Part shown: piece after piece, positions 7,801-63,559 of the stretch
Layout: each line of letters begins with the position of its first letter
Numbering within the stretch: the first letter of the stretch is position 1
Assembly (NCBI GenBank): GCA_018857735.1
Contig: JABMCL010002018.1
Span: forward strand, 638,501 to 702,500
Direction: 5' to 3'
Length of the DNA stretch: 64,000 bases
From: Alviniconcha marisindica
Lineage: Eukaryota; Mollusca; Gastropoda; Provannidae
Notes under the pieces: model-generated
What the model saw: only the letters and a program-made list of their open reading frames with translations
Database searches by the model: none
What the model was told of the DNA's origin: nothing
Position numbers and translations under genes: made by a program

Positions 7801-8125
7801 GGAAAAAAGGTCAGTTTTGTGTCTTCTTTTGCTTTTCTCTTTATTCTTTGCATAAACTGTCCACTAGAAATTGAGGTTGCTTTGCCTTTTGTTGGCAAGC
7901 ATGCATACACACATGCTCACAAACAACACAAACAAACAACACATACACACACACACAAACAAACAACATACACACACACACACACACAACACACACACAA
8001 CATCACAACACACACACACACACAACACAACACAACACAACACAACACACAAAACACACACACACACACACACAACACACAAACACACAACACACACAAC
8101 ACACACAACACACACCACACACAAC

Positions 8126-11010: not shown

Positions 11011-13324
11011 CACACACACACACACACACACATGGAGCATCCGTAACCCCAATCAGCATTTGCATTGAAATGTTGCTGACCTGCCATTTGCTTTCAGATC
11101 CCTACGAGGCAGTGGCAGGCGTTCAGATGACAGAATGGGAGCGGCAGCGAGAGCAGGAGGAGTTCAGCAAAGCAGCCAAGATTTACCGCCCACTCTCCTC
11201 CATGATGGCCTCTCGCTTCACCCGGGGTGCTTTCATTGACGACCCTGACCAGCAGTCAACGCTGGTGGACTCTGTGGTTAGTGCTGTACTTGTATTTGTA
11301 TCAACCAGGCTGTGGACACTGTTGTTAGTGCTGTGGTTGTATTTGTATCAGCCAGGCTGGTGGACACTGTGGTTAGTGCTGTAGTTGTATTTGTATCAGC
11401 ATATCTGGTGGACACTGTTGTTAGTGCTGTACTTGTATTTGTATCAGCCAGGCTGTGGACACTGTGTTAGTGCTGTGGTTGTATTTGTATCAGCATGTGG
11501 ACACTGTTGTTAGTGCTGTTGTATTTGTATCAGCCGGGCTGTGGACACTGTTGTTAGTGCTGTAGTTGTATTTGTATCAGCAGCTGTGGACACTGTGGTT
11601 AGTGCTGTACTTGTATTTGTATCAGCCAGGCTGTGGACACTGTTGTTAGTGCTGTGGTTGTATTTGTATCAGCATATCTGGTGGACACTGTGGTTAGTGC
11701 TGTACTTGTATTTGTATCAGCCAGGCTGGTGGACACTGTTGTTAGTGCTGTAGTTGTATTTGTATCAGCGTATCTGGTGGACACTGTTGTTAGTGCTGTA
11801 CTTGTATCAGCGTGTCTGGTGGACACTGTTGTTAGTGCTGTACTTGTATCAACCAGGCTGGTGGACACTGTGGTTAGTGCTGTACTTGTATTTGTATCAG
11901 CCTGTCTGGTGGACACTGTTGTTAGTACTGTAGTTGTATTTGTATCAGCGTGTCTGGTGGACACTGTGGTTAGTGCTGTACTTGTATTTGTATCAGCATG
12001 TCTGGTGGACACTGTGGTTAGTGCTGTACTTGTATTTGTATCAGCCAGGCTGGTGGCCACTGTTGTTAGTGCTGTAGTTGTATTTGTATCAGCATATCTG
12101 GTGGACACTGTGGTTAGTGCTGTACTTGTATTTGTATCAGCGTATCTGGTGGACACTGTTGTTAGTGCTGTACTTGTATTTGTATCAGCCAGGCTGGTGG
12201 ACACTGTGGTTAGTGCTGTAGTTGTATTTGTATCAGCGTGTCTGGTGGACACTGTTGTTAGTGCTGTAGTTGTATTTGTATCAGCATATCTGGTGGACAC
12301 TGTGGTTAGTGCTGTAGTTGTATTTGTATCAGCGTATCTGGTGGACACTGTGGTTAGTGCTGTACTTGTATTTGTATCAGCCAGGCTGGTGGACACTGTG
12401 GTTAGTGCTGTACTTGTATTTGTATCAGCCGGGCTGGTGGACACTGTGGTTGTATATTTATCAGCCAGCAGTCAGGGCTGGTGGACACTGTGGTTGTCTG
12501 TGTATCAGCCAGCAGTCAGGGCTGGTGGACACTGTGGTTAGTGCTGTAGTTCACAGGTCACGGGTCATGACTTATGAATGTGAACAAATGTTTACCTATC
12601 ATGATGGATATATGTATTGGGGAATATGGACTAATGTTGCCATGACAGCAGAAGGAACTGCCCTATGCTTCTCGGAGTTTCAGTCACTGATCAGTCATAT
12701 TTTCCATCCTCTCCTGAGGGACTAGATATTGTCTGGTTTTTACCTGCCAGGCTAGGACTTGTACAGTGATGAGGCACAATGAGCAATGTGTGGGGGAACT
12801 TAGCGTGTGGAACACGTGTGAGTGTCTGTATGAGCCTGTTCCAAATGTTGTGTTACAGAGAGAGAAGAGTGAAGCAGCAAAAGCCGCAGAGATGAAGATG
12901 TATGGACGACTGACGCGAGAAGAGTTTGAGTGGCACCCTCACAATCTGATCTGCAAGCGTTTCAACGTCCCCAACCCCTACCCTGAGTAAGTGGGGGAAG
13001 GCATCCCTGACAGGTTTAAAGGAGCATTCCCGCGATGGCATGTTCACTTTTGTGCAACAATACCTGTGACTGTACTAGACATTTAAAAACTGGTGTGACG
13101 TTCATTAGGTGGCAAAAGTGGTTCGCGGAAACCGATCAGTCATTTTAACCAGTCAGATATACAGCCATCCATACTACTACCAGAGTTCTGCTAGCAAACG
13201 CCCTGCTCCTTTCCCCACCTAGCATGCACACACACAGGCATGCATGCACGCATGTTCACACACATGCACAAACACACTCACACATGCACACACACATGCG
13301 CATGCACACATGCATGCACACGTG

Positions 13325-45658: not shown

Positions 45659-48600
45659 ATGTCAACTAAGATAAAGCAGACAGCTACACGCAGTGTGGAA
45701 GATGTGGACACGTGGGATGACCACCTGGAAAAGTTAATAGGTCAGATTGTGATGTCAAGTAAACTGTGCATTATACAGATATTATGTAAACAAATCTGAA
45801 ACAGAATGACTGCTAGCATTCTGAAACAAGATCCAAACAAAAAAACATAAGTATTTTTCTCATTTTTATCCGTTTAACTCTTGTTTACGTGCTATTTTCT
45901 CGCTTGAGGAAAGGGGTTTCCCTGAAAATTTGCATATTGTGTTTCTGTGTCATAATAATTAAGCGTTCTTTTGAGCCTTCTTGTGTTTGGATCTTATTAT
46001 ACATGTATGTATACTACACATGTACTATTATGCCTTCTTTGTTTGTTGTGCATTTTTTGTTTTTGAGTGTTGCCGGAAGCCAGTGCGGCAACCAAGTCAC
46101 GCTACCCAGTTTAACTAATCCTGGCCTAATTGTGTGCATCTTTTGCATAGTTATGCCTACATTATGTGTTCGCTTTTTTTAATACATATATTCATTGCCG
46201 ATAACATTTCCATCTCAATGTACATTATGTGTGTTATACTATGCTTGTTCAGCGCCTTGAGCCGCAGGGAAGGCACTTTACAAATTTCCATTATTATTGT
46301 GAGCAAGTGCTCTTTGTATACGTTTTTACAATAATCCCGCCCCGGTTATCAGATCTATGCAATTTCATTACTGTACTGTTAGTAACCTGGGAACCAGAGC
46401 AGACGACGCTTTTGTTTTGAAGTGCTGCGTGTTGCATAACGCCACATGGCCTTCTCACAGCCGACCGGCAATAGCCGCCGGTGCGCGCCATTTTCAAATC
46501 GTTTTCTCCCTTAATATTTTGACCGCCTTGTTTGTTTATCTACTCTTTGTTCACCTAGTCCTTTTTATGCACTAAGCCATGTGTAATATAATTTGGCAGC
46601 TTAGAATGTTTATTTAGATCTTATTTTTTAAGTAGACACAGGATCGAGCTTAATCAGTAGCCGATGCCTCTCTGGGTCCATTTTTTTTATAGCCGTCGTC
46701 TGCATGGCGCGTTCTCTGTTTAGTACTAGTAAATAGTAGTGCATCATTGTTTTGACTCGATTAAAGTAATTCTGTGTCGATCAATGCTTTGTCGTATAGT
46801 ATTTTGCTTAGCTGACTTCATGTTTAGTGTTTATTTTGGGTTGAAATTAACTTATTGAGTATTGTGTACTGTAGAAGCTAAGTTGTATTCATAGACTACT
46901 TGGTATCACTATCAGCGCTGTTGTGACTAAGATAACGCGCCCCAGGCGAAAGTTCACACCGATTATTTTAGTGCTAGTCTTTGAGTGTGTCTTGCTTCTC
47001 TTACAGAGCGTTGTATTGTAATTGTTATGTACCATTTTAACCGTGGGAGCGTGCACTTTATTCTGATGTAAGTTTTATGGACAGTTATATTTTGTACATT
47101 GTATTAGTTGTGATTTAGTTGTACGAATCTGCTTATAGACAGGTGCAAGCCACGCTTCCCACTCTTGTTGTAAATAAAATAAGTCATGTGTGTACATTTT
47201 GTTTATACGGTTTAAAAGGTTGTAATTGTAGCTTTCATTTGATGTTTTTCATGTTTTAATTAGTTTAGTTATTGTTGAGGAAACTGTATTTGTGCGGGCC
47301 AAGGAAACACAATTGTCAGCCATTTTGTGGTCCAGAGGGCCAATTTTATTGTAGCGATATCATGTGTTCCTTGCGGCCCGCGCCGTTCTCTTATCTATGC
47401 GTGCACGTGAGGATTTTGTGTGTGCTGAAAATTGTGTGCTGCTGAGCAAATAAAGTCTGATTGCTGCCGTCCGCCTGCTGTGGTCTCCATTTCAACAGAC
47501 TCTGATGCCTGTGTCCTGTCCTTCTACCACTCCACACCATTACATTATTATTAATTGATTAGGGCTGCTTTTTCCAGTGTTAATTATTCAATAAACTGGT
47601 CTACATCTTAAACTGCAAGCGTGCATGTGTTGCATCAGTGTGTATGATTTGTCAATATGTTGCTCTGTATCTTCCGTAAACCTCAGTATTAGTTTTAAAA
47701 CATGCAGGAGTTTAGCTGTGTACGCAGGAAACGGAGCTTCCGTCATCTATGTGGATATATTTTCTTTTGCTTCTGTACCTATGTTTGTTATATTTACAGA
47801 TGTATTCAAACCTTTCTTGTTGGAGAAGCTGAGGGTTTCCCACCTCCTCTGCCTCATTCACCTCAAGGTAATACTGTTGATGGGTGTTTTTTTCTTCTTC
47901 TTCTTCCTATAATCGTTTTCTGGGTATTACGTCGTGCTTTATAAGCAGGTGTGTGCAATACATGGGTGTGGATGTTTATCGATCTGTGTGTGCATTTGCA
48001 TATGCATAGAATCTAACAAGTTTATCTGTCTGTGTGTGTGTGTGTGCGCACGCGACCGTTTAGTCTATGTTGGGTTATTTTGGTGTTTCCGTAGTCCAAA
48101 CTCTGACATGGACAGCAGGATCTTTAACATGCATCTGTGATCTTCTTGCATGTGTATGCACACTGGGGATCTCAGTTTATAGTCTCATTCAAAGGACTTG
48201 TGTGTGTGTGTGTGTGTGTGTGTGCGTGCATGCATGTGTGCGTGTGTGTGTGTGATTGAGGGTGTTTGCGTTGCAATTAGTAATACCCCCTGACAATAAG
48301 TTTGATGTCATTAAACAGGAGGTGAAGGATGTGGCTGCCATGATACACCGGAAAGAGAACAGTGGTAACTATCAGGAGGCATCCAGTGACTTGCTGGAAG
48401 CCATTATGAGGTCTGATGAGAGGGGAAAATGGCAGATGTTCATTGATGCACTAAAAGAGGTTTGTGTCTAGTTAATATGTGAATATATGTATTCTGTACC
48501 CACTTGTTAAATTATTGTGTGCGACATGTCATCAAGCAGATTAAAGAAGAAAAAGGGCATCAGCTTACAGTTTTTAACTTGAAAGCTCTGTGAGACTTGA

Positions 48601-51600
48601 GAATCATTCATAAGCCTGCCCACGTCAGAAAGACCACACACATTTAATCAATTTTTTTGTAACCATTTCCACCCCAACAGAACAGAACAGAACAATCGCT
48701 GTGATGGTCTGCAGTAGATACGTCATGCCTCAGTGACGCATATGCACTTGTTCGTTTCTGCATTTTTGCAGTAGACCAATGAGAACACTCCAGCCACCCC
48801 TTGATCATTTATCAGCCAATGTACTTTCAGCCCCTCTCTGACTTGATATGTCGCCACGAGTGTGATTATCACAAATACGCTGATGATACCCAGTTGTCAA
48901 AGGGGACTCCTCCCGATCAATTTCAGTCTCTTCTCTGTGATATCCAAACCTGCGTTGAAAGTCTTGTCGGCTGGATGTACAGCAACAAGCTCAAACTGAA
49001 GTTCTTCCCGTTGCATCTACCTCCCGCCTTAGTTTGGTTGGCAGAGATAGCGTAGACATAGGTGGCAAGCACATACCATTCAGATCTTCAGTCAGGAACC
49101 TAGTTCATCTCGATCAGACACTGTCTATGCAGCAACACATCAGCAGTGTATGCCGTGCAGCATACCTAGAACTTAGAAGAATAGCTTCAATCCAACCATG
49201 CTTGACTCAGAGTGCAACTGCCCAACTCGTTTCATCTGCCATAACATCCCGGCTTGACTACTGCAATTCCATCCTTGCAGGATTACCCTTGAAGCAGATT
49301 TCACGCTTACAGAGAGTCCAAAACAACGCTGCGAAACTTGTTCTTAGAAAGTCCAAATACGATCATGTGACACCACTCCTGCAAGAACTGCATTGGCTTC
49401 AGATTAAATTCCCACCACAGTACAAAATAGCCACTTTTGTCTACCGCTTTTCTGACGGCTCTCTACCAGGTTATCTTTCTCAGACTCTATGTGCATATGA
49501 ACCAACACGAAACCTTCGCTCATCGTGTGAGAAGTTCCTCAATGTCCCAAAGCGCAACACCAAAACGTTTGGAGAGCATTCCTTCAGCTTTCTTGCACCT
49601 TCTGTCTGGAACTCTCTGCCATCCGATCTCAGAAATTCTTCTACCCTTCCGCTGTTTAAATCCAGACTCAAAACTCACTTGTTCGCGACAGCTTTCTGCC
49701 AGTAGGATCTCTGCAGTCTTCAGCGCCCCCCCCCCCCCCCCCCTCCCCCTGCTCCCCCCCTGCTCCCCCCCCCCCCCACCCCTTCCCCCCCCCCCCCCAC
49801 ACCCCCCACCCCGACCCATGAATGTGCTTCCAGAGTGTTTTAGTTGCTTCATGGTCATTAAGAGAGCGAGAGTGAGAGTGACAGAGAGTGCAGGGAGCGG
49901 GAGAGATGGTGGGTGAGGAGAGAGAGAGTATGTGTGCATGTGAGACAAAGAGAAGGGCAGAGAGAGAGTGGGGGGAGGGAGAGGTGCATGTGTGTGTGTG
50001 TGTGTGTGTTTTAGCGTAGTAATAATACTAATTACTTAGAACACAGCTTTATAATTATGTACCTGTTTTAAATTATTGTAACGTCTCTATGTTTGAGGAC
50101 AGTTATTTTATGCGCCATTTTACAAGCACTTGTTTTATATTAGTGTAATTTATTAAGTACGTATTATGAGATGGCTTGTATGTGATATGTTAGTAAATGT
50201 AAATCGTATATATCATGCACATGCATGTGAACAAGCGCGTTGAGCTCGCTCAGCGGGGACTAGCGCTATAGAAAATGTACGTATTATTATTATTGTTTAT
50301 CATGCTTGTTCAACGCAGAGAGGTACAAGCAGGGACTGATGTCCCAGGAGGTGGGGGGAGGGGGAACTATACTTGACACCACCCTGTCCCCACCACAGTC
50401 ATTTCTACATTAATATGGGCAGCAATGAGAGACATTTCAGTGCCCCATTAACCTGCGAGGGGCAAAGTCACAAGACAGCGTCCATAAACCATAATAAGCT
50501 TTGAAGAGACAGGAGAGCCTAAGTGGGGAAGCACACTGAGGAATTGACCGTTAGGCCAAACCGGCTTGCAAACTGACACACCACTGCCACCACCACCTTT
50601 TATGTAGCCGCATCGCCGTCCAACAGATGCAGCGACCAAGACACATCAGTGTGTATATATATATATATATATATATATGCATGTATCAACTGGATCTGTT
50701 ACCATCAACTGAAATCTGATTGCCATCGTCATCATTTGTTGTCACCAGCTTAAAATTTGTTATCACCAACTGAGATCTTGTTGCTGTTATAACCAGCAGA
50801 GATTTTGTTGTAATTATCTACAGCTATATTTTTATGCCACCTTTGATCTTGTTGCTATTATATATGTTATTACTAGCTGAGATTCAGTTGTTGTTATTTT
50901 TTGGTCTGTATTTTTCCTTCCTCACCATTGACTTAGACCTTGTTGCTATTTTCTGTTGTCATCAGTTAAGATCATGCTGCTGTCACCATCAGTTATCACC
51001 TGCAATCAGACTGACACACTGATCTTGATTGTTGTGTTACACACAGGTGAAGAACACTGTTATACTTCAGACTCTACTGGACGAGAAGTCGGATGACCTC
51101 TGGCTGGATGACCAAGGCAACCGCAAGCTGATAGAGCTGTTCAGCCAAGACATTGAAAGAAGCCTGATGCTAGGGCCCCTGCTGGGCAAGATGCTGCAAA
51201 AGGAGTTAATCAGTCACGAAGACATGATAAATCTCCGTGCCTTGATTCGTGACGGAAAGGAGCGGGAGGCCATTGCAGTTCTTATTCTGCTCATGCACCG
51301 CAACTCCACCACCTGGTTCTCCGATTTCCTGACCATTCTTTACGAGGAGGATGAACACCACATGGAGCTGGCCAAGCTTATTGACCCAGGCTTCTGCGAA
51401 AAGAAGCAGGAGCAAAAGAAGCTGTTGGCCGCAATGGGTAAACAAAGCTCAGCAGCAGAGCATGGAGCAGGAGATGTCCCAACCCAAACACCCAGCATGG
51501 TCAGTAACTCCGGAGGCGGGGAGAAAGACCTCGGGGACAAGTCTCTCCCACAGGCACAACAGCCTCACCACGCAGGATACGAAGGGCAGACAACGCCGGC

Positions 51601-51739
51601 GGGTAGAACAGGGGAGGCAACCTGTACTTGCCAGTGTTGTGCTAAAGTGCTGGCCGAAGTCGCCTCCCTTAGATCAGAGCTGGCCGAACTGAAGAGTCTA
51701 ATCGGACGTTTTGTCGCCAATGGCAAGCAACACACTTGA
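45659..51739 (+). CDS. Tandem-CARD protein A with C-terminal CxCxCC coiled coil
   Basis: Predicted 327-residue cytosolic protein with two CARDs of the RIG-I/MDA5 type and no helicase. Exons 45659-45740, 47800-47867, 48319-48459 and 51047-51739 (stop TGA) join in frame at phases 1, 0 and 0. The ATG has an in-frame TGA 54 bases upstream. CARD1, about residues 17-105: HLEKLIDVFKPFLLEKL, then EASSDLLEAIMRSDERGKW and FIDALKE. CARD2, about 120-205: ELISHEDMINLRALIRDG, TTWFSDFLTIL and HMELAKLID, resembling the MDA5 second-CARD pattern (ENWFSAFLNVL). Residues 206-285 are a Gln/Ser/Gly-rich linker; 286-327 hold GEATCTCQCCAK and a heptad-like helix (LRSELAELKSLIGRFV). A role in RLR/MAVS-type antiviral signalling is inference. 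Introns hold a possible LTR and a LINE fragment. The paralogue lies 10 kb downstream. Confidence 0.85.
46067..47540 (+). mobile_element. Possible solo LTR in CARD gene A intron 1
   Basis: Non-coding block with an AATAAA at 47449-47454 followed by GTCTGATTGCTGCCGTCCGC and a pyrimidine-rich end, a layout like an R-U5 region. The left edge near TGTTGCCGGAAGCC (about 46067) is a guess, no target-site duplication is convincing, and no gag or pol is present. A second 3' tail-like block (CGCCTTGAGCCGCAGGGAAG then ATTATTATT) lies at about 46250-46300. Confidence 0.3.
48805..50295 (+). mobile_element. CR1/L2-type LINE fragment (reverse transcriptase C-terminus)
   Basis: 5'-truncated non-LTR retrotransposon in the last intron of CARD gene A. 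The catalytic-loop motif YADDTQL is at about 48877-48897. After a frame break near 49000-49040, the frame 49034-49705 gives the usual C-terminal blocks (SRLDYCNSILAGLP, RLQRVQNNAAKLV, LHWLQIKF, PSVWNSLPSDLRN, FKSRLKTHLF) and a stop. Poly-C/G-rich sequence and a 3' tail GTTGAGCTCGCTCAGCGGGG ending in (ATT)n follow. Same transcriptional orientation as the host gene. Not intact: endonuclease and most of the RT are missing. Confidence 0.85.
49727..49815. repeat. C-rich low-complexity tract
   Basis: Several runs of 7-19 C broken by T, G or A, within the 3' part of the LINE fragment at 48805-50295. Run lengths are probably uncertain. Confidence 0.85.
50461..50570 (-). repeat. Diverged copy of the Leu/Ser-headed SINE
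   Basis: GGCAAAGTCACAAGACAGCG, TCCATAAACC and TTGAAGAGACAGGAGAGCC match the body of the element at 42766-42895, followed by a degraded tRNA-like head (GACCGTTAGGCCAAACCGGC on the plus strand). Confidence 0.7.
51047..51739 (+). other. Last exon of CARD gene A: CARD2, linker, CxCxCC, coiled coil
   Basis: Single 693-nt exon after an ACACAG acceptor. CARD2 spans about 51113-51370. The Cys motif and helix occupy 51611-51739, with Cys residues 290, 292, 294 and 295. The paralogue keeps CARD2, linker and tail together in one exon in the same way (62120-62851). Confidence 0.9.
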
Positions 51740-51869
51740 TTGTAGCCGTTGGATATGACGATTGATACAGTGATGCCAAACTGTGAAATTGTCCGTTTTG
51801 TGTGCGTGATGGTGAATGCTGACTTGTAGCACACACAGCTTTCTGTGTTTCCAATAGCGTTCTTGTGGT

Positions 51870-52140
51870 CACAGGAGTTTGTGGTCAGTGCCTAAGACGC
51901 TGGGGTGCCATTCCAGACTCCAGACCATGACAGGGTGGAGAAAATAAAATTCAGTTCTTATGAGTCCACACTTGTGCAAACTCATCAGTGCCCGTCTCAC
52001 CTTTAGGTGCAAAATACACACTAAGATCGTTGTGCATGTTAAAGATCCCATGACCATTTTTAATTTTTTTTAATTTGTCACATCAAGCCTAACTGCTGAT
52101 GGCATTGGAAACACACTGATAGCACATAACAACAGAAGAA
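51870..52140. repeat. SINE-body fragment downstream of CARD gene A
   Basis: The block TGTGCAAACTCATCAGTGCC, TTAGGTGCAAAATACACAC and GTTAAAGATCCCATGACC resembles the body of the 32774 SINE. The AATAAA at 51943-51948 lies inside it and could serve as the poly(A) signal of CARD gene A. Confidence 0.5.
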
Positions 52141-52264
52141 GAATTAAAACGATCATTGTGACTACTTAGAATAAAAGAAGAAGAATATGCTCAGGTGTAT
52201 GTGTGTGGGTGAGGTGACTTAAATTTTAAAACACATATTACCCGCTGTGTCTGTGTTATCATGC

Positions 52265-52990
52265 ATTGTTTTCATTTACCAAGCAAGTACATAACTAATA
52301 TGTTTGAAGTGAGCATTTTTATTAATTTTGGGGGTGGTTTAATTATACACTGTGTATGATTTGCAGCACTGTTCTGTATCTTTTGGAGTTTAGAAAGAAG
52401 ATACTTAGGGCAGCCAGCTAAAAGCGAACTGCAATAATCTGGTCTTGAAAGAACAAATAAACGCAAATTTTTTTTGTTTGTTTGTTTTTTGTGACATCTT
52501 TGGACAGATAGTGGTGTATTGCACTAATCTGATGAAGCTCCAGATAGTATATACGACAAACAGAGGAGATTTGCTGTTGGAAAGAGAAAGTAGGATCAAG
52601 ACAGACACCTAGGTTGCAAACTGTGTTGACAAGTTTGATGTCAGAACCCTCCAGGTTTATGGACTCTGAAACAGAGTCAGAGTTGAGAGTCGTCTTCGAA
52701 GCCAACACAGTCATCTCTGTTTTATCATTGTTTAAATGCAGTTGATTATTTGTTATCCAAGCTTTTACATCAGAAATACGAGACTGATTTGAATGAAATG
52801 ATTTCAGGAAGTTGAGAAACGTTGCCAGATTTGTACAGTTGGTTGTCATCAGAAAAACTGTGATGTAAAAGAGAGTGATAGGATACAATTTCAGAAATAG
52901 GATGAATGTAAAGGACAAAGAAAATGAGAAAATGCTCCCTTGATTGTATATTCAATTTGTAAACTGTTCCATGCATGAATGCTTGGAGGA
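52265..52990 (-). mobile_element. Second CR1/L2-type LINE fragment (decayed)
   Basis: On the minus strand, a catalytic-loop remnant SFSDDNQLYKSGN near 52885, then NNDKTEMTVLASK, NLGVCLDPTFSFQQQISS and, in another frame, LSRPDYCSSLLAGCPKYLLSK and LQKIQNSAAN near 52380. Frame changes and a changed first catalytic-loop residue mark it as dead. Its orientation is opposite to CARD gene A, and it is a different lineage from the fragment at 48805. Confidence 0.8.
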
Positions 52991-53554
52991 TTGGCTGTAC
53001 AACACAGTAACAAGTGTCCTAACTGGTTCATGTTCCAAACACTGCCTCTTTGGTATTGGGCACCGGCATGAGAGGTCTGTGCTTCTGTCTTCTGAAGACC
53101 ATGGTCAAAGGGAGGGGCAATGACATTAGCCTAGGTCAGTGATGACTAGTGATGCTGTTTTCTACAGCCAATTCACTCTAGCACATGCTAACAAACATAT
53201 TGGAAATGACAAATAAAATCAGCAGAACATTTGAAAACAAAATTTTCGACTGAGCTTCTATTTTTAACTCTAATGCTTGGAGAAGGTCTGGCTGTTTGGG
53301 ACAAACGTTTTGAGAGGGCCAGTTCCTTTAAAGGCTGGTGTGTGGCGTGAGTGACCTCTGCACATCCATCAGCTTCCTCTGACTGCTCCTGGACAGCAGA
53401 GGCTGTTGACAGTAACGACACTGGATCATACCTCTGTTATTTTGTCTGATTAAGCTGAATAATCCTGGGAGAAATTAGAAAGACAGAATTCTCTTCAGAA
53501 GGCAACACATGCGGAACTTATCTAGTGAGCCAGGCCCCACTTGACAGTTCTGGA

Positions 53555-54649
53555 ATCACAGCATGAAGTACTTGGTTTCCCACACACATGGTATGCTAGT
53601 GTTGAACTGCGTCATTTTAACGTCTGTCATACTGTGCTCAGTCTTCACACAGTGTTTTATGTATGTTTAAATTCCTTTGATGTACTGTGTTCACTGCCTG
53701 TGAAACCACAGAATTAAAGTTTGGGTCATCAAACATGCTCTTTGTGTTCATATACTGTATACATGTTCGCGTGTATGCGCACACACACACACACACACAC
53801 ATATGCACATGCATGCGCGCGCACGCACACATGCACGCGCACATGCGTGCGCACACACACACACACACATCATTCATTTATTCATTCATGCCCTGTGGCT
53901 GATTAAAATAAACAATGTTTTTTCAGTTATTTTTGGTGGGGAGTGGAGGTTGTGTGGTGTGGTGTGCCATGGCAGGAGTGTGTGTGTGTGTGTGTGCTTA
54001 GTGTGTGTGGTGTGGTAGGGGACGGGGGTAGCTTTTGTTTGCATCACAAAATTACAATCAGAATTTTTCAACTTGTCAAAGCAACAACTGGAGGCATATC
54101 TACCATTTGTGTGACACTTGCAACCTTCGTGTTCAAATAGGTTACTGTCAAAGTGTTACCATGTAAGAAAACAACCACAGACACAAAAAAGATAAAAGTA
54201 TGGAATCACATCATGGAGTACTTGGTTTTTCACACACATGGTACCCTAGTGTTGAACTGCGTCATTTTAAAGTCTGTCATACTGTGCTCAGTCTTCGCAC
54301 AATATTTTATGTATGTTTAAATTCCTTTGATGTACTGTGTTCACTGCCAGTGAAACCACAGAATTAAAGTTTGGGTCATCAAACATGCGCATTGTGTCAG
54401 TATGTATACATGTTCATGTGCATGCGCATACACACACACACACACACACACACATATGCACATCCACACACACACACATGCATGCATGCCCACAACACAC
54501 ACACACACACACACACAACACACACACACACACCACACACACATCATTCATTTATTCATTCATGCCCTGTGGGTGATCAAAATAAACAATGTTTTTTCAG
54601 TTATTTTTGGTGGGGAGTGGAGATTGTGTGGTGTGGTGTGCCATGGCAG

Positions 54650-54717
<68 letters not shown>

Positions 54718-54730
54718 TGTGCATGTGTGT

Positions 54731-54806
<76 letters not shown>

Positions 54807-55012
54807 ATAGTGTATATGTGTGGTGTGGTGGGGGACGCGGGTAGCTTTTGTTTGCATCACAAAATTACAATCAGAATTTTTCAAGTTGTCAAAGCAACAA
54901 CTGGAGGCATATCTACCATTTGTGTGACACTTGCAACCTTCGTGTTCAAACAGGTTACTGTCAAAGTGTTACCATGTAAGAAAACAACCACACACACAAA
55001 AAAGATAAAAGT
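53555..55012 (+). repeat. Large tandem duplication with GT/AC microsatellites
   Basis: The block starting GGAATCACAGCATGAAGTAC (53551) recurs as GGAATCACATCATGGAGTAC (54202) and continues through GTCATCAAACATGC, AC tract, CATTCATTTATTCATTCATG, GGTGGGGAGTGGA, GT tract and GCATCACAAAATTACAATCA. The copies are about 650 and 810 bases; most of the length difference is in the microsatellites (54650-54810 is a long GT tract). No gene inside. Confidence 0.9.
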
Positions 55013-55625
55013 ATTTTTCGCCCAGTACCGCCATCACCCTCACTAGTGAAACTTATTTGACAGAATATATCAATACTGGAACTGACTGCGAGGTGTCACT
55101 TGCCTAGCCGTTACCTGGCCCTGCATAGCCAAACTCGGCTTGGATCTAGATCACATGCTATCGCTTGGTTTGGACTGAGCGTGTTATCAAAACCTGGACA
55201 TTTTTGTTTTAGTCGAGGGCTGCTCATTTGTTTGTGTGTGGGGGGTGGTGGGGTGGGGTGGGGGTGGGGGTGGGAGAATATTATGTATGATATGTTGCCA
55301 TACGCCAAACACTTCCCAGGCCTTGTTGCATGCAGTTGCTGACGTTATTCACAGCGCCAAAAGTAAATACTACTCGAATTCCTGCAACTTACCATGGGTC
55401 CCCAATATTCCTACTTTAGTTTCGTATAAACAGTCTTACTTTCCTTTCGTGTCGGCGTTTTCCTGTTTAAATTCGTACTTTCCTTTCTGTTCGAAACTAA
55501 AAGCAAATCTGGCCATTTTGCAGCATAGCAAATAGGCCAAACGTTCAGGTAAAGGCTGATCTTACAGTTTCGGTGTTAAACAGATCTACACCTGAAAGCA
55601 GGCTGACGCAAATGGGGTTTTCCCA

Positions 55626-55651
55626 CGGACCTATATGTAGGTCCGTGGTTT
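55626..55651. repeat. ACGGACCTATA hairpin, third copy
   Basis: CCACGGACCTATATGTAGGT, then CCGTGG, is a near-perfect inverted repeat. Similar TATA-centred palindromes lie at about 43946 and 44203. This one is about 270 bases upstream of the putative first exon of CARD gene B. Confidence 0.7.
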
Positions 55652-55918
55652 TTCCAGTGCAACAGCCTAATCCTGGCGTGTACTTTCTGTTTCAGTTTAA
55701 TTACTAAGTTATATCTGTCTCAGTCTCTCTCCGTTGTGTCTTAAAATCAAACACAGTTCCTGGTGGCTTAAGGAAACTGCTCTGTAGTGTGTTACCTTAC
55801 TTCGCCAGCATTTTGCGGAGCCACATTTTGACTTGGTCAGTGTTAAGTCGGCCGCGAGACACAAGGCGGTGCGGAGACAGTGGTCACCGGGCAGGGCTTG
55901 GAGTGGCAGTTGGCAAAC

Positions 55919-56020
55919 ATGGCAATACAGCTACGGAGGCCAGACACAGCGTCCCGTTGGGAAGCCGGGCAGCAGCAGGCGCAAGAGCTTGAGAAAAGGG
56001 ATGAACACCAATGGGGGGTT
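55919..56020 (+). other. Putative first exon of CARD gene B
   Basis: ATG at 55919-55921 opens a frame whose length and ending (QELEKR) vaguely resemble exon 1 of gene A (HLEKLI). It lies in a GC-rich stretch similar to a promoter/first exon. The frame runs on into poly-C without a good GT donor, so the 3' border is unknown. An earlier in-frame ATG at 55880 is possible. Confidence 0.3.
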
Positions 56021-56451
56021 TTCCTTTTTCTCCCCCCCCCCCCCCCCCTCCCCCCCCCTTACTTTCTTCTTTCTTTTTTGTTTCGCTTTCCGTGTTTTGT
56101 TTACATTCCCCCATGGTTGATGGGCTTTAAAAAAAGACTATCCAAGCGTGCGTGGTGTCATCGATCGTTTGGGGTTTGGGTTTGGTTGTGGTGTGTGTGT
56201 GGGTGTGTGGGTTTTGTGGTGTGTGTGTTAGTGTGTGTTTTTTGTGGTGTGGTTCGTGTGAGTGTGGTGTGGGGGTGTGTGGTGTGTGTGTGTGTGTGTG
56301 TGTGGTTTTTGGTGCGTCCTGGTGTGGGTTCAGTGGTGTGTCGGGGGTTGTGTGGGGTGTGTGGTGGTGTGTGTGTGTGTGGGCGGGGTTCGTGCTCTTT
56401 TCATTTTTTTTCTTTTTTTGCCCTGGTGGGGGTTTTGGGTGTGTGTGGGGG

Positions 56452-56496
<45 letters not shown>

Positions 56497-57957
56497 TTTT
56501 TACTAGGTTTTGCAAGACACGCACACAAGTCAGTAAATAATCTTCTGTTTCCCTCAAAAACCCCTCGGTGACAGGGGTTTAAAGGAACAATTAGCTTTCA
56601 AAAAGGGGTTTCATCCAAAAGGTCGGAGAAATCAGAATCCCGGAACCTTTAAACCATAGAAAATTTTGTTTTTTTCTTTTCGTTTCTGAACTTGTTTCAA
56701 TAGCGTGGGTTTTATAATGTTTTTTTTTGGGTTCTGTTTTTAAACAGAGTTTTGCATGCCATTCCTGCGGGAAAAACCTGAACATTGCTCACATTTTGGG
56801 TGTGGTTGATTCGGGTGATTTTAGTCACAAACCACACACACCCCCACACACCCACACACCACACACCCACCACCACACACACACACACACACAGAGAACC
56901 CGCGCACACCATCACACCCACTGACTACACCCAAAACAACAAACCACACAACCCCATCACACACCACACACCACACACACACCCACACCACACAACACAC
57001 AAAACACACACTAAAACCCCACACACCCCGGAGCACCACGCCGCACGACCACCAGCACGCACGCACACATACACGTGCTTGTAGCATCTTGCCTTCTGTT
57101 CTGGTTATTAGGAGGTGAATGGTATTGCAAGCCGTTTACTCCAGTACGAAAACGATGGGAAGAGGAAAGAAGCCGTCAGGAACTTCCTGGAAGCCGTGAA
57201 AGACTCGGATCAACCTGGCAAATGGCAGATGATCGTTGACGCTCTTGAACAAGTAGGTGTCTGTGTTGATCGGTTACCTTTAGGGGTGGGTGGAGGCGGG
57301 GGAGGGGGGGGGGGTGTCAGTGTGTAATATCCTGGCAGGATAACTAATACCAATGGATTTTGTTTAGCCTTAAATTCACTGACGTAAACTGTATATATTT
57401 CAGAGCTCAGGAGCTGTGTGAAAGTCGAGGTGGACGTCCTGGGCTCCCGTCCCTAATAAACCTACGGTTTCTGTGGACGTAAAGCAACACTGACTTCTTC
57501 ATCATGTGCCCTATACTTGTCCCCCTTTTATTCCGGTTGACTTTGCCAGCCACTGCAGCCACGTGGTCAGTGTCGTCAGATGCACTGATTCCTCCTAACT
57601 CAGTCTTTCTTTTCCCTGAGGAAGATGTATGACATCCCATTTAGTCCATGTGTGGCCACTTAGCACAACCCGCTTGAGTTCCAATGTTTTGTGTATCCCT
57701 ATGTCTTAACTGAAACTAATGTTTCTGATTTGCTACGAGTCTCGGACTCAAAATGTTTTTGACTGAGACCAGTGATCATGGACAGGAGCTAGACTAACCG
57801 GGAGTACAAATTTCCCGGCAGGGAAAGGGGTAAAGTGCCATTATAATACTAACACCCCTTTTCCAACCCCCCCCTTTTCCTTCCTCTGGTGTGTGGTGTG
57901 TGGTGGTGTGGGGGGTTTGTGTGTTTGTTTTTTTTGTTCTGCTTTTTTTTTTGTTTT

Positions 57958-58008
<51 letters not shown>

Positions 58009-61000
58009 CCTGAAGGAAAAATAGCCTTTTTAAAACCTTTTTCGAAAGAATAGAAGATTCAAAGTAAAAAACTTAACCCCAAGGGCGCCGTTTTAAATTT
58101 TTCCGGGGATTTTAATTTTTTGAAAACTTTTTCTTTCTTTTTTCCCCCTTGGGGGCTTTTACATTAACATGCTCCACCCCTTAAGTAAGTTTCTCTCTTT
58201 CTCTCCCCCTTCTCTCTATTTCCCCTTTCTCTCTCCCCCTCTCTCTCCCCTCTCCCCTCCCTTCTTCTCTCTCTTCTCTCCCCCTTCCCCTCTCTCTCTC
58301 TCTCTCTCTTCTCTCTCTTCTTCCTCTCTCCCTCCTTTCTTCCAAAGGGCTCCAAGAAAAAAAAAAAAAAGAAAAAATGCACACACCAACCCCACACCCC
58401 ACACACCCCCACAACACCCCCACACACCAAAAAAACCCCCACACAACACACACACACACACAAAACCACACCACACACCAACAACACACAAAAAAAAAAG
58501 AAAGAAAAAAGAAAAAAAGACCATGCAATAAATACTTTACAAGATTAAACTCTAAAAAACCTCGTCAAAATTTGATCAGTTTTTGGGTAATACACCTTTC
58601 GGGCTATCTTGTCAATGATCTTTAATTCGCATTATTTTTGTTACATAAAATGTTTTTTTTAAATGGGTTTTGAACGGTGCGCTAAGGTTTTCTTGTTGAT
58701 CTTACAAGTATAAATATAGAACTTTGCACGCAGATTATCAATCAAAAGGGCTTCGATTTAATTGGCTGTATGACCAAAAATACAAAATTTTCGTTAAACG
58801 CTATTGTCCTCGCATTTGACTCCCGGGATTAAATGTGTCTGGAACTGTTTCCCAAAAAAACTTTATGTACACACATCTCCAAAAAATGTGATTGATGATC
58901 TCTTTCCCGCTACAAAAAGAACATTAATGTCATTTTCCCCCTGTGCATTAAAACAATATGGTAGCTAAAATTTTTTTTACAAGTCTTATTGGAACCATTT
59001 TTTTTTTTCTCTTGGATTTTTGATTTTTTTAAAAGGGTTTGCCCAGTATGCTTATTCAACTTTCTTTCCATTTTTCCCCACTTAGGTTTTCTTTACCCTT
59101 CATTTTAAAAAATCCCTTTTTTTTGCTGTAAAAAATCTTAAGCCTTTGTAAACGGTTGAAACCCCTTTCTTCAATGTTAGTCCCGTTTTACAAAGAAAGG
59201 AACCAAAAATTTAACATTAATTCCGTGTTTTTATTTTTAAACAACATTAAGGATGAAATTGGCCCCCAGTTTTTTTTTTAGGTCTTTTGATTTGTCCCCT
59301 TTTGGTATGCATATTATTATTCCTTCTTTGTGTTGATGATAATTCACCTTTTCTAAACCCATTATTTAATGATTTAACAAGAATGCACCCAGCTGTCGCC
59401 AATTTTTTTTAAAAAAAATTCAACAGTAAAACCATCAGAGCCTGGGCTTTTATTGTTTTTCATGTTCTTGAGGCAACGCTTGCTTCATCTAAAGTAATTT
59501 CCCCCTTTGAGTGAGGTCTTTTCTTGCACTGTCAATGTTGGTATATCCTCAACCAAGTCTAAATTTTTTCTAACTGTCTGTCAAAGTATAATCTTTCATA
59601 AAACATTTTGACTTCCTTTATAATGTCCTTAGTTTCATATATTTCCTCACCATTGTTTAAAATAAGCCTAACATTTGTTTACTAAAACGTAATTAGTTTT
59701 TTAAGTGCACAAAAAATTTTTTTTTTTTTTCGCCTTCGGGAACCCTCTTTCCCCCTCATCGAACAGAACCCCTCCATCTTTTTCTCTCTAGGGAAATTTT
59801 GCTCCTGTTTTTTAAAATTTATTTCCCCTTTTTCGTCTTCTGTCAATTTTAAATTTTTGTTTTTAACCCGAATATTGTTCTGCAAATCCCTTTCCTTTTC
59901 CTGATCCACACATTTTTTCTTTTTACTACGAATTGTCTTTATAATTTTCTTAAAATAGTCTAAAAAAGCTGATCGGAAATTACAAATTGAAAGTCAATTT
60001 TTGGGGTAAAGGAAGGTTAGAGAATAGGGGAGAGCGCAATTCTTCAATCACGGTTCTTCTACATCATTTATTTTTGTTTGCAAACAGCTTATTTTTAATG
60101 GGAAATTATTAAATTTTTAAATAGTTATTTCTGGGGTTTTAATTTCCCCAAATAAAGTGATCAGGAAGACTGTCCGGAACCGGGCTTAAGTCTGCTTCTG
60201 TCACGTAAGTGGACACAAATCTGAAAAAGGGAAAAAATCCAAACTACTCGTTAAGGGGTGTTTTCTGCGCCAGAACCGTCCATTTTGGATGAATTTCTCT
60301 CCAAAATTAATAGGTCGAGGTTTATCATTAAATTCTCGACTTGTTCTTGTGCTTTAGCATTATTAAAGTGTTTATAGTTATAATAATCTAATGTGAAATC
60401 CAAGACTAAATTCCAGTCTCCTCCAATAATAAGATTTTCAAAGCCAACTTCGCTGATCCGTTCCTCAAGCTCGGCATAAAACTCCGGATTATCACGGTTT
60501 GGGCCATACAAACTGACGATCACAAAATCTTTATCCATTATTCTGACAGTGACAAATATATCATTTCCAGCAATATCTTTATAAACCTTGTTTACAGAAA
60601 ATTCGAAATTATTATTAAATAATATTGCGACACCCCTCGAACTTGAATTATACGAGGCAAAATAACATTTATAACCCCACTCAGCCCGAATACAGTTCTC
60701 TAGTTTTGGATCAAAGTGGGTATCCTGCATTAGGCATATGGAATATGACTTATCTCTTAAATAGTGAAAAACATCTCTCCTCTTGCGCGGGTCAGCTAGG
60801 CCTTGGCAATTCATTGAGACAACCTTAACTGTATTGGTCATGGTATGCGTGATCTAATCCCACTACAGCCAGGAGACACTATCCAACAAAGCAGAAGCAT
60901 CATGGAAGGAACCACTTTCACGTGCGAACATAGCTCACGAAAATCCGCCACAAATGTCCATACAAACAGTTCAAAACCTACGCCAGTACAGGCACATGAC

Positions 61001-61322
61001 GTACATACGCACAGATCACAACACGCTGAACCCAGCGCTGAATATGCACGTACAAACATAATAAATTCAAAGTCCATGGCCAATATAGTAAAACCCAAAA
61101 AACAGGCAAACGGACAAACAATACAACCAACTAACAGGCATAAACAGGTACACAAAAATTCCACACACACAAAAAGTTACAGTATACTAAGCTGTAGAAG
61201 AAAAGGAAAAGAGTGATTTTCTGGTGAAATCGCTGATCAAGCAGCGCAAAAAGATATCGTTCGACTGTCGAGTGCAGATCAGAAGATATGAACTTAAAGA
61301 AAAAAAGAAGAAAAAAAAGTGG

Positions 61323-61357
<35 letters not shown>

Positions 61358-62851
61358 GAAATAGAGACAGAGAGAGAGAGAGGATAAACTTTCAAATAAA
61401 GAAGAAGAAAAGACAGAGTAGTTCTCCTTCCCTCTCCCTCCAAATCTACCTGGGTCACAAAAAGGAATATAAGGTCTACACAGGCAGACGTATCAAACAT
61501 GTTTGAATACACATGATTTTATCTTGCACTGCAGCACACATCTTTACTTATAAGCATATCGACGGTAGATGTACACCATGTTCTTACGTGAAAAATAAAT
61601 AGACAAAAATGAAATAACAGCCCACTGACTAGAGTTACAAATTTGATAATAGACTCCATAGTTTTGATTGACATAATAAATTAACGTGTAAGGTGTACGA
61701 TGTTGATCAAAACTACTGGTTTATAATAAGTATATACCTGTGTATACAAATGAAGATTATTTTCTAATTTAATGTTGTTTTTCGGGGTTTTTTGTTTTGT
61801 TTTTGTTAGATCATCATCATCATCATCATCATGATTTTGTGACTGTTCCACACAGCAGCTGAGACAGTAACTGCGTAGTAACACTAGTTGCGAGCGGACA
61901 CTGCCTTAACACTTTTAATGTTCTGGCGGCGGTCCACGGCATTCTTGGTCATCCGGGTTGGTGCCTGCTGTTGAGCCTTCATTCTATCTCTCTCTCCCCC
62001 CCCAACCCCTCCCTGTCCCCGTCCCTAATAGGCCATCTCGCCTCTGTGGACGTTAAGCAAAATCATTCCCGATGATGATGACTGCAATCCGGTTTTATCA
62101 CCTGTTCATGTGTCTGCAGGTGCGTGACTCCGTGGTGCTCCATTACCTAATGGGAGGAGACTGCAACGACCCGTGGCTGGACAAATCAGAACATCGAGCA
62201 CTGATCGATGTTTTCAAAAGGCCTCTGAACGAACACTTGAACATCAAGGCCCTGATTCCGGAAATGCTTGAAAAGGACCTTCTGCTGGAAGCTGACGTGA
62301 CCAGGCTCAATGCGATGACCTCAAATGAGGCCGCTCAGCGGTTCCTGATCATTGCAATGCAGGCCCACAACAAAAACTGGTACAGCATATTCATGACCAT
62401 CTTGTACCACGACGATCATCACAGAGAGTTGGCGCTGATGATTGACAAAGAGTTCTGCCAGAAGGTGCTGAAGGATGGTCAGCAAGAAGAAGAAGAAGAG
62501 GAGGAGGAGACGTCTCTCGGTTCGACGACGTCAGATCCGCTCTGCGGCCACGGCCACTCAGTGGATACGGGCCTGCCAAGTTCTGCCTCCAACACGTCAA
62601 GCGAAGGACACAGTAAGGTCCCCACACTCTCCATTCTGTCGGAGCGAGACACCCAAGTGAAGACGGTGTCACAGGCGGAGCGAGCAGCCGAGCGTGGACC
62701 AGGGGAAGCAACCTGCGCGTGCAGGTGCTGTGCAAGACTGCAGGCAGAAGTTACTGCCCTTACATCAATCTCCACCACCCTGCAGGCGGAGCTGGCAGAA
62801 ATCAAAACCCTTCTTGCGAGTCTTGTAGCGAGAAATAAGCGTCAGCTGTGA
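55919..62851 (+). CDS. Tandem-CARD protein B, paralogue of A (5' end unresolved)
   Basis: Two exons are certain: 57112-57252 (141 nt, same length and phase as in A) and 62120-62851 (732 nt, stop TGA). The 141-nt exon ends CARD1 and matches A at about 21 of 47 residues, including GKWQM and DAL. The last exon has CARD2 (LIDVFKRPLNEHL, NKNWYSIFMTIL, HRELALMIDKEF), an acidic run of eight Glu, a Ser/Gly-rich linker, then GEATCACRCCAR and LQAELAEIKTLLASLVARNK. Exon 2 is probably 56748-56814 (FCMPFLRE, then NIAHILGVVD one frame over), needing one-base homopolymer changes in a poor-quality stretch. Exon 1 may start at 55919 (MAIQLRRPDTASRWEAGQQQ) but has no convincing donor. Intron 3 carries an L1. 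It may be a gene with assembly errors or a damaged copy; the clean downstream exons favour a real gene. Confidence 0.7.
56180..56495. repeat. GT-rich simple repeat
   Basis: Irregular GTGT/GGGT sequence ending in a purer (GT)n at about 56452-56491, in an intron of CARD gene B. Likely poorly resolved consensus. Confidence 0.85.
56748..56814 (+). other. Probable exon 2 of CARD gene B with frame break
   Basis: Follows a TTTTTAAACAG acceptor. FCMPFLRE aligns to VFKPFLLE of gene A exon 2, and after the AAAAA run the match continues one frame over (LNIAHILGVVD to LRVSHLLCLIH). Length is 67 against 68 in A. One A too many and an uncertain GGG at the donor would explain the break. Confidence 0.6.
56830..57075. 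repeat. AC-rich simple repeat
   Basis: Irregular ACACCC/CACCAC sequence between probable exon 2 and exon 3 of CARD gene B. Confidence 0.85.
57112..57252 (+). other. Exon 3 of CARD gene B (end of CARD1)
   Basis: 141 nt, phase 0 to 0, TTATTAG acceptor and GTAGGT donor, starting EVNGIASRLLQYEND and ending GKWQMIVDALEQ. It is the exact positional counterpart of 48319-48459 in gene A, so these two exons anchor the paralogy. Confidence 0.92.
57402..57495 (+). repeat. Dispersed repeat R2 (plus copy)
   Basis: GAGCTCAGGAGCTGTGTGAA, AGTCGAGGTGGACGTCCTGG, GTCCCTAATAAACC and TTCTGTGGACGTAAAGCAAC. Inverted relative to the copy at 19890-19985. Confidence 0.65.
57960..58007. repeat. Poly-G tract, 48 bases
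   Basis: The longest homopolymer in the window, flanked by T-rich sequence on the left. In an intron of CARD gene B, next to the low-quality LINE region. Confidence 0.85.
58190..58500. repeat. CT-rich then AC-rich low-complexity block
   Basis: Pyrimidine-rich (CT)n-like sequence to about 58345, an A run, then AC-rich repeat with A homopolymers. It abuts the 3' end of the L1 element. Confidence 0.85.
58510..60841 (-). mobile_element. L1-type LINE, internally deleted and frameshifted
   Basis: Minus-strand element in CARD gene B intron 3. The frame 60841-60251 encodes an intact-looking N-terminal endonuclease of 196 residues (SMNCQGLADPRKRRDVFHYL, LMQDTHFD, VSLYGPN, IIGGDWNLVLD), the APE-type fold of L1 ORF2. 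Further down, broken frames give the RT entry region near 59480-59420 (NNKSPGSDG-like) and 59290-59230 (KNWRPIS-like), then C-terminal blocks near 58925-58860 (HIFW-type) and 58700-58560. The YADD catalytic region is not found, so part of RT appears deleted. The very dense single-base frame changes sit at homopolymers. Confidence 0.8.
60251..60841 (-). CDS. L1-type endonuclease domain (ORF2 N-terminus)
   Basis: 196-residue frame with the exo-endo-phosphatase landmarks of non-LTR ORF2 proteins: an Asn in SMNCQGL, the Glu-position motif replaced by QDTHFD (Asp in place of Glu), the YGPN loop, and GGDWN. It ends at a stop in a stretch rich in substitutions, so the ORF is truncated relative to a complete ORF2. 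Unrelated to the host CARD gene and on the opposite strand. Confidence 0.8.
   Translation of the reverse strand: MTNTVKVVSMNCQGLADPRKRRDVFHYLRDKSYSICLMQDTHFDPKLENCIRAEWGYKCYFASYNSSSRGVAILFNNNFEFSVNKVYKDIAGNDIFVTVRIMDKDFVIVSLYGPNRDNPEFYAELEERISEVGFENLIIGGDWNLVLDFTLDYYNYKHFNNAKAQEQVENLMINLDLLILERNSSKMDGSGAENTP
60842..62119. other. CARD gene B intron, LINE 5' side and repeats
   Basis: Left part probably includes the 5' UTR of the L1 element; no ORF1 protein is recognisable. Contains (GACA)n at 61323-61365, a (ATC)n patch at 61812-61832 and an R2 tail at about 62018-62065. Confidence 0.5.
62120..62851 (+). other. Last exon of CARD gene B: CARD2, linker, CxCxCC, coiled coil
   Basis: Begins after a GTCTGCAG acceptor with VRDSVVLHYLMGG and continues for 243 residues to TGA at 62849-62851. 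CARD2 is at about 62198-62455 and the Cys motif with helix at 62702-62848. An ATTAAA at 62884-62889 is a possible weak poly(A) signal. Confidence 0.9.
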
Positions 62852-63559
62852 TTTTGTCCGCGAGCTCCAGACGTGGAACTTTAATTAAAGAAAGTCACAA
62901 GTCCCCCCCCCCCTCCCCCTCCCCCCCATGTCCCCCGTTTTTTGGGGTGTTTTTTTTCCCCTTTTCTTCCCGTTTTGTTGTTGTACGGTTTTTGTTTATT
63001 TGACGGGGGGGTCTCTGCTCCCACGACATTTTTATTTTACTGCAGAAGTTCGCCACCTGCAAGTTCTTCAAGAATTTGTACTGAGGACAAGGTACAAGCT
63101 GATGTGCTTGAAATAGTGCTGTTTTTCTACTAGAGCAGCACTTGACTTATTTTTATTGTCTTAAATGAGCTTTTTTTTCCTTTCTTTCTTTTCTTTTAAT
63201 CAGTAGAGAAGCATTGACTGGTGTTTATCGTCTCTGCGGGAGCATACTGAGTAGTCTACTGGTATCCTCAGTGAAGTGGTTTTTGTGTTCATTTCGTTGA
63301 TTCTAAATACAAACACTGCTAAACTGTGCTATTCACAGATTATCAAACACTTTAAATAGGTCTACATGGATTCATTGTGAGCTTTTATTGGAGCTGGTGA
63401 GATTTTCGTACTCTTCTGCCTAGTATAGTAGCAGCCACTTTCACATTCTCTGAGAATATGTTTCGTATTCGTTTTTCAGACCCGTGAGTGCGGAATAAAT
63501 TACCGTCTGTATGCTCCAAAACGAAAAAGGTAGCTCTGCTAAAAACAGGTTCCATCCAA

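Follow-up and report, generated by a model that had tools for sequence, protein, structure and literature searches.

What could a gene do that carries the signalling domains of an RNA sensor and appears to end before any RNA-binding part? This question is raised by two neighbouring genes, here called A and B, in a 64,000-nucleotide stretch of the genome of the gastropod Alviniconcha marisindica (C1673:638501-702500, hereafter the window), which we analysed along with the genome it comes from (818 Mb, 2806 contigs searched). In line with a mollusc origin, the haemocyanin family PF14830, a marker of molluscs, has 28 matches in this genome. Both genes lie on the + strand, about 11 kb apart, and their last exons are built alike: one CARD, a disordered linker, a CxCxCC motif and a short helix, closed by a TGA stop that is followed by a poly(A) signal. 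The reading that we favour, and that we hold to be not far from an even call, is that A and B, a tandem pair, go back to the twin-CARD N-terminus of a RIG-I-like receptor (RLR), have a conserved tail and no helicase or RNA-binding domain, and serve as tail-clustered nucleators or adaptors.

The last exons span 51047..51739 in gene A and 62120..62851 in gene B (positions are those of the window, + strand) and are supported by Pfam matches, alignment and structure models. Each contains the second CARD of its gene (CARD2), with approximate limits at 51095..51391 and 62165..62458, respectively. A Pfam scan matched the gene A exon to CARD (3.8e-5) and to CARD_2 (6.5e-5, under the curated cut-off of that family), and the gene B exon to CARD_2 (1.1e-6) and CARD (3.4e-5). 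Matches were weaker in the genome-wide search with the CARD profile (0.0058 for A, 0.0050 for B), while the corresponding CARD_2 search recovered B at 7.7e-5 and did not reach A at the 0.001 cut. Furthermore, structure models of CARD2 of both genes showed a helical bundle whose top solved match was MDA5 CARD2. CARD9 and CARMA1 were also among the structural matches, ranked below MDA5, and death-domain rows stood far under the CARD rows. Structure prediction thus returned CARDs as the best matches, not death or DED folds or the lack of any death fold, and CARD2 of A and of B is predicted to adopt the CARD fold. The best PDB match of the profile was likewise MDA5 (6.1e-5), so that sequence, fold and exon order all bear out the sequence-only reading of these domains as RLR-like CARDs.

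The kinship to RLRs can be followed within the same genome. The region C553:756324-785716 (L013-L017) encodes an RLR with the order CARD-CARD-helicase-C-terminal domain (CTD), in contrast to Aplysia and Biomphalaria, whose RLRs are reported to lack CARDs. Its CARD1 is spread over two exons and its CARD2 lies in one; these three exons, once joined, match CARD_2 at 1.6e-15. Helicase motifs I (APTGSGKT) and II (DECH) were recognised by motif, and RIG-I_C-RD exons were found at 782932 (E 0.075, under the cut-off) and 785477 (9.1e-8). Compared with this receptor, the last exons of the pair resembled its CARD2 (z 10.5 for A, 9.4 for B) more than its CARD1 (z 1.4 and 5.8). We inferred the splice sites and exon joins of A and B from the sequence alone; on these sites, exon 2 and the last exon join in phase 0 in both genes, just before the codon that is split in the C553 RLR, whose CARD introns, likewise inferred, are in phase 1 and split the codon that opens exon 2 or 3 of A and B. 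If the inferred sites are right, the intron position would be kept within 1 nt between the pair and the receptor. This agreement, together with the collinearity of the pair with the CARDs of the RLR, points to descent from an RLR CARD module as the most likely origin of A and B.

Upstream of each last exon, we found support for exons coding the C-terminal half of a first CARD (CARD1). Exon 2 of gene A (48319..48459, EVKDVAAM...DALKE) is backed by Pfam, with a CARD_2 match at 0.0034, and by alignment. Exon 2 of gene B (57112..57252, EVNGIAS...DALEQ) is backed by alignment, its CARD_2 match in Pfam alone being weak (0.19) and ranked behind two unrelated families. Both have inferred phase-0 ends. 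The two exons share 21/47 residues (z 16.8), and in local alignment both were closer to CARD1 of the C553 RLR (z 6.0 for A, 3.6 for B) than to its CARD2 (z -0.1 and -0.3). A candidate exon 1 of gene A at 45659..45785 (+) has an ATG at 45659, a possible donor at 45786 and an open frame, and is not supported as the first half of CARD1: with exon 2 appended, the CARD_2 match began no earlier than profile position 42, and its similarity to the first half of RLR CARD1 (z 0.48) was reached by 28.5% of 1000 shuffles.

The tail is where A and B depart from receptors. A search among 5.8 billion proteins yielded ten relatives, four of them B-like (P0001-P0004, with 94, 91, 93 and 53% identity) and five A-like (P0005-P0009, with 88, 82, 81, 82 and 52%); the tenth, P0010, was found later in a search that scored the best 8000 candidates and is 34% identical to B and A-like by eye. 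All ten start at or near the last exon and are therefore uninformative on exon 1. In the alignment of A, B and P0001-P0009, CxCxCC was kept in 11/11 rows, and P0010 has it as well. The cluster lies at 51623..51640 in gene A (CTCQCC) and at 62714..62731 in gene B (CACRCC). Mean identity between A-type and B-type rows was highest in the tail (0.54), lower in CARD2 (0.36) and lowest in the linker (0.23); by these alignments, the tail is what differs least from one type to the other. In the proteins we scanned, Pfam assigned no family to the tail. Structure models predicted a single helix in each tail, at 51632..51730 in gene A (residues 196-228 of the exon product) and at 62723..62842 in gene B (residues 202-241). 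The helix is 7 residues longer in the five B-type rows than in the six A-type rows, which share a 7-column gap, and a difference of this size would keep the heptad register; P0006 lacks three additional residues further along.

We propose that the helicase and RNA-binding domain were lost from the lineage of A and B, or were never present in it, and that the conserved tail stands in their place. The tail would self-associate as a short coiled coil, while its cysteines could bind metal, form disulfides or be acylated and so hold the protein at a membrane. Self-association would keep several CARD pairs together without RNA, the tail replacing RNA as the clustering device, and the clustered CARDs could then seed or stabilise the CARD filaments of a MAVS-like partner. 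A and B would act as adaptors or amplifiers downstream of the true RNA sensors, and they probably relay or tune an antiviral alarm rather than sense RNA. Isolated RIG-I CARDs signal alone when overexpressed. Furthermore, MAVS filaments may start from oligomers that the tandem CARDs of RIG-I form with polyubiquitin, a possibility discussed in one study (PMC3932521). The role of adaptor or dominant regulator suggested in the sequence-only reading would fit A and B.

Several observations weigh against this proposal. Neither gene yielded the first half of CARD1, upstream scans for a CARD-like exon remaining at background, and a CARD1 without its first half would hardly fold as a CARD. The missing piece may be a divergent exon, a distant exon or a different gene start. 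Similarity of B exon 2 to the corresponding half of RLR CARD1 was low in global alignment (z 2.9), where the best of 500 shuffles scored above it. Consequently, of the architecture CARD-CARD-linker-CxCxCC-helix originally read in two adjacent same-strand genes, CARD2, the linker, CxCxCC, the helix and the strand all held and the second half of CARD1 is supported, but the first half was not recovered, and "CARD-CARD" stands for one whole and one half-seen CARD per gene. Kinship among the CARDs is also not sharply resolved, because gene B CARD2 scores z 6.0 against a CARD on contig C2389. The coiled-coil character of the tail agrees with the single predicted helix, but the heptad count by itself was weak and not significant (p 0.094, 0.212, 0.054, 0.123 and 0.068 in five sequences), and no TRAF-type motif was conserved, PxQxT being present in 3/11 rows and in neither A nor B.

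Finally, a free CARD pair could equally block signalling. Vertebrate CARD-only inhibitors (ICEBERG and kin) have an inhibitory role, and A and B may likewise be decoys or brakes that act on RLR/MAVS CARD filaments by capping or titrating them, a possibility to which we give limited credence. A CARD alone would suffice for such a brake, yet the tail is what the two types have best preserved, which weakly favours a nucleating or adaptor role over that of a simple decoy. Rather unlikely, in our view, is that A and B replace MAVS as membrane adaptors, with acylated cysteines in place of a transmembrane segment. The invariant cysteines are densely placed beside the helix, and Aplysia is described (PMC9334734) as having CARD genes of the RIG-I/MAVS type that lack a helicase, and no MAVS was recognised there. 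We saw no transmembrane segment in A or B, the C-terminal helix being charged throughout (read from the sequence, no membrane predictor applied).

Could the two genes instead be incomplete models of ordinary RLRs, with an alternative splice linking their CARD exons to a helicase elsewhere? Two circumstances leave room for this: splicing is inferred only, and searches of contig C1673 leave out the roughly 12.5 kb that immediately follow the window (read as N). However, both genes have a stop and a likely poly(A) signal (AATAAA at 51943..51948 for A, ATTAAA at 62884..62889 for B), and ten relatives carry the same tail. No helicase-like open reading frame (ORF) was noticed by eye between A and B among ORFs of at least 70 aa, no helicase family search having been run on the window, and RIG-I_C-RD (PF11648) had no match on contig C1673, outside those 12.5 kb, among the best-scoring candidates. 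We therefore consider splicing into a helicase very unlikely, and the claim that both genes end without a helicase or RNA-binding domain is upheld as a prediction from their stops, poly(A) signals and the lack of a RIG-I_C-RD match. Least probable of all is that A and B are decaying, functionless gene copies, as the failure of upstream scans to find a first exon might suggest, since their last exons are open, 7/10 relatives match A or B at 81-94% identity, and the linker is less conserved than CARD2 and the tail.

Genome-wide, the last exon of gene A found three places: itself, gene B (5.7e-28, 35%) and CARD2 of the C553 RLR (0.029, 29%). With this query, the last-exon type has two copies in the genome, A and B. 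Profile searches, which scored the best candidates only and whose counts hold among these, gave 4 matches to CARD_2, 21 to CARD and 9 to RIG-I_C-RD, the latter on six contigs; of these six, C553 alone had a CARD_2 match and none had a CARD match. The other RIG-I_C-RD matches, on C2014, C2005, C988, C658 (two) and C2651, came without a detected CARD and possibly belong to CARD-less RLRs. Separately, C2389:1022382-1023716 (L002, L020; minus strand) encodes a CARD in two exons, which together match CARD_2 at 1.7e-9; it is the only CARD seen in a gene that is possibly MAVS-like, and a crude scan revealed no transmembrane segment in the 20 kb downstream. Single-exon proteins with a CARD and a long coil-like region are encoded at C614:44163-44432 (L004) and C117:69484 (L045), in open frames of 476 and 304 aa.

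Elsewhere in the window, three retrotransposon-like ORFs lie inside or between the genes. The one at 60251-60853 (-) matches Exo_endo_phos in Pfam (9e-7), whereas those at 48959-49705 (+) and 52418-52951 (-) look like reverse-transcriptase remnants by eye only, Pfam giving nothing for the first and one weak unrelated family for the second. The upstream neighbour at 7527-7874 is probably a GPATCH1 exon (PDB 9s2f, E 1.1e-9); a Pfam scan of six ORFs near it gave nothing at 0.01. Repetitive long ORFs on both strands at 11599-12541 (290 and 312 aa) are probably a minisatellite.

As five of the six RIG-I_C-RD contigs showed no CARD match among the candidates scored and RLR-type CARDs occur in two separate tailed genes, A and B offer a natural example of receptors and signalling domains encoded apart. 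PMC9334734 describes RLRs of Aplysia and Biomphalaria as being without CARDs, reports MAVS and STING as not found in Aplysia, and raises the signalling route of such receptors as an open question. A and B are a concrete candidate, open to test, for that missing step. A broader version of our proposal, which we think unlikely, is a split mollusc relay. In it, RLR-type CARD pairs that stand alone and are already oligomerised, held by their cysteine-cluster tails and possibly anchored to a membrane, would link CARD-less RLRs to the CARD effectors as nucleators that need no RNA, where MAVS is missing or divergent.

Compared with known systems, A and B resemble RLRs (MDA5/IFIH1, RIG-I and the C553 receptor) in the fold and sequence of CARD2, in having the second half of CARD1 ahead of CARD2 and in their inferred exon boundaries, and differ in showing no helicase or RIG-I_C-RD, in their CxCxCC-helix tail and in the intron phase. 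The N-terminal domains of lophotrochozoan RLRs vary and tandem arrays are frequent, according to the part of PMC8998645 available, which does not deal with helicase-less genes. MAVS of vertebrates and of oyster (CgMAVS, PMC5557890) is likewise a CARD adaptor without RNA-binding domain, but combines a single CARD with a C-terminal transmembrane segment, to which CgMAVS adds a Death domain; in A and B, a CARD1 half-exon precedes CARD2 and a whole first CARD was not found. CARD-only inhibitors are, like A and B, small CARD proteins without effector domain, but A and B would carry a further, half-seen CARD, and they have a conserved CxCxCC-helix tail. In CARD-coiled-coil proteins of the CARD9/CARMA/BCL10 type, a CARD is followed by a helix, as it is in A and B, whose linker is long and disordered, whose helix is short and whose best matches are to MDA5. 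The closest precedent is in Aplysia, where two genes with RIG-I/MAVS-type CARDs and no helicase or CTD are already listed (LOC101858480, which carries two CARDs, and LOC101846979; PMC9334734, 2022), so that calling A and B an undescribed system was too strong. The description given there mentions neither a CxCxCC tail nor a tandem pair, both of which A and B have, and the Aplysia RLRs are reported as CARD-less, whereas the genome of A and B has a CARD-bearing RLR. The idea of CARD genes of this type without a helicase is therefore not new.
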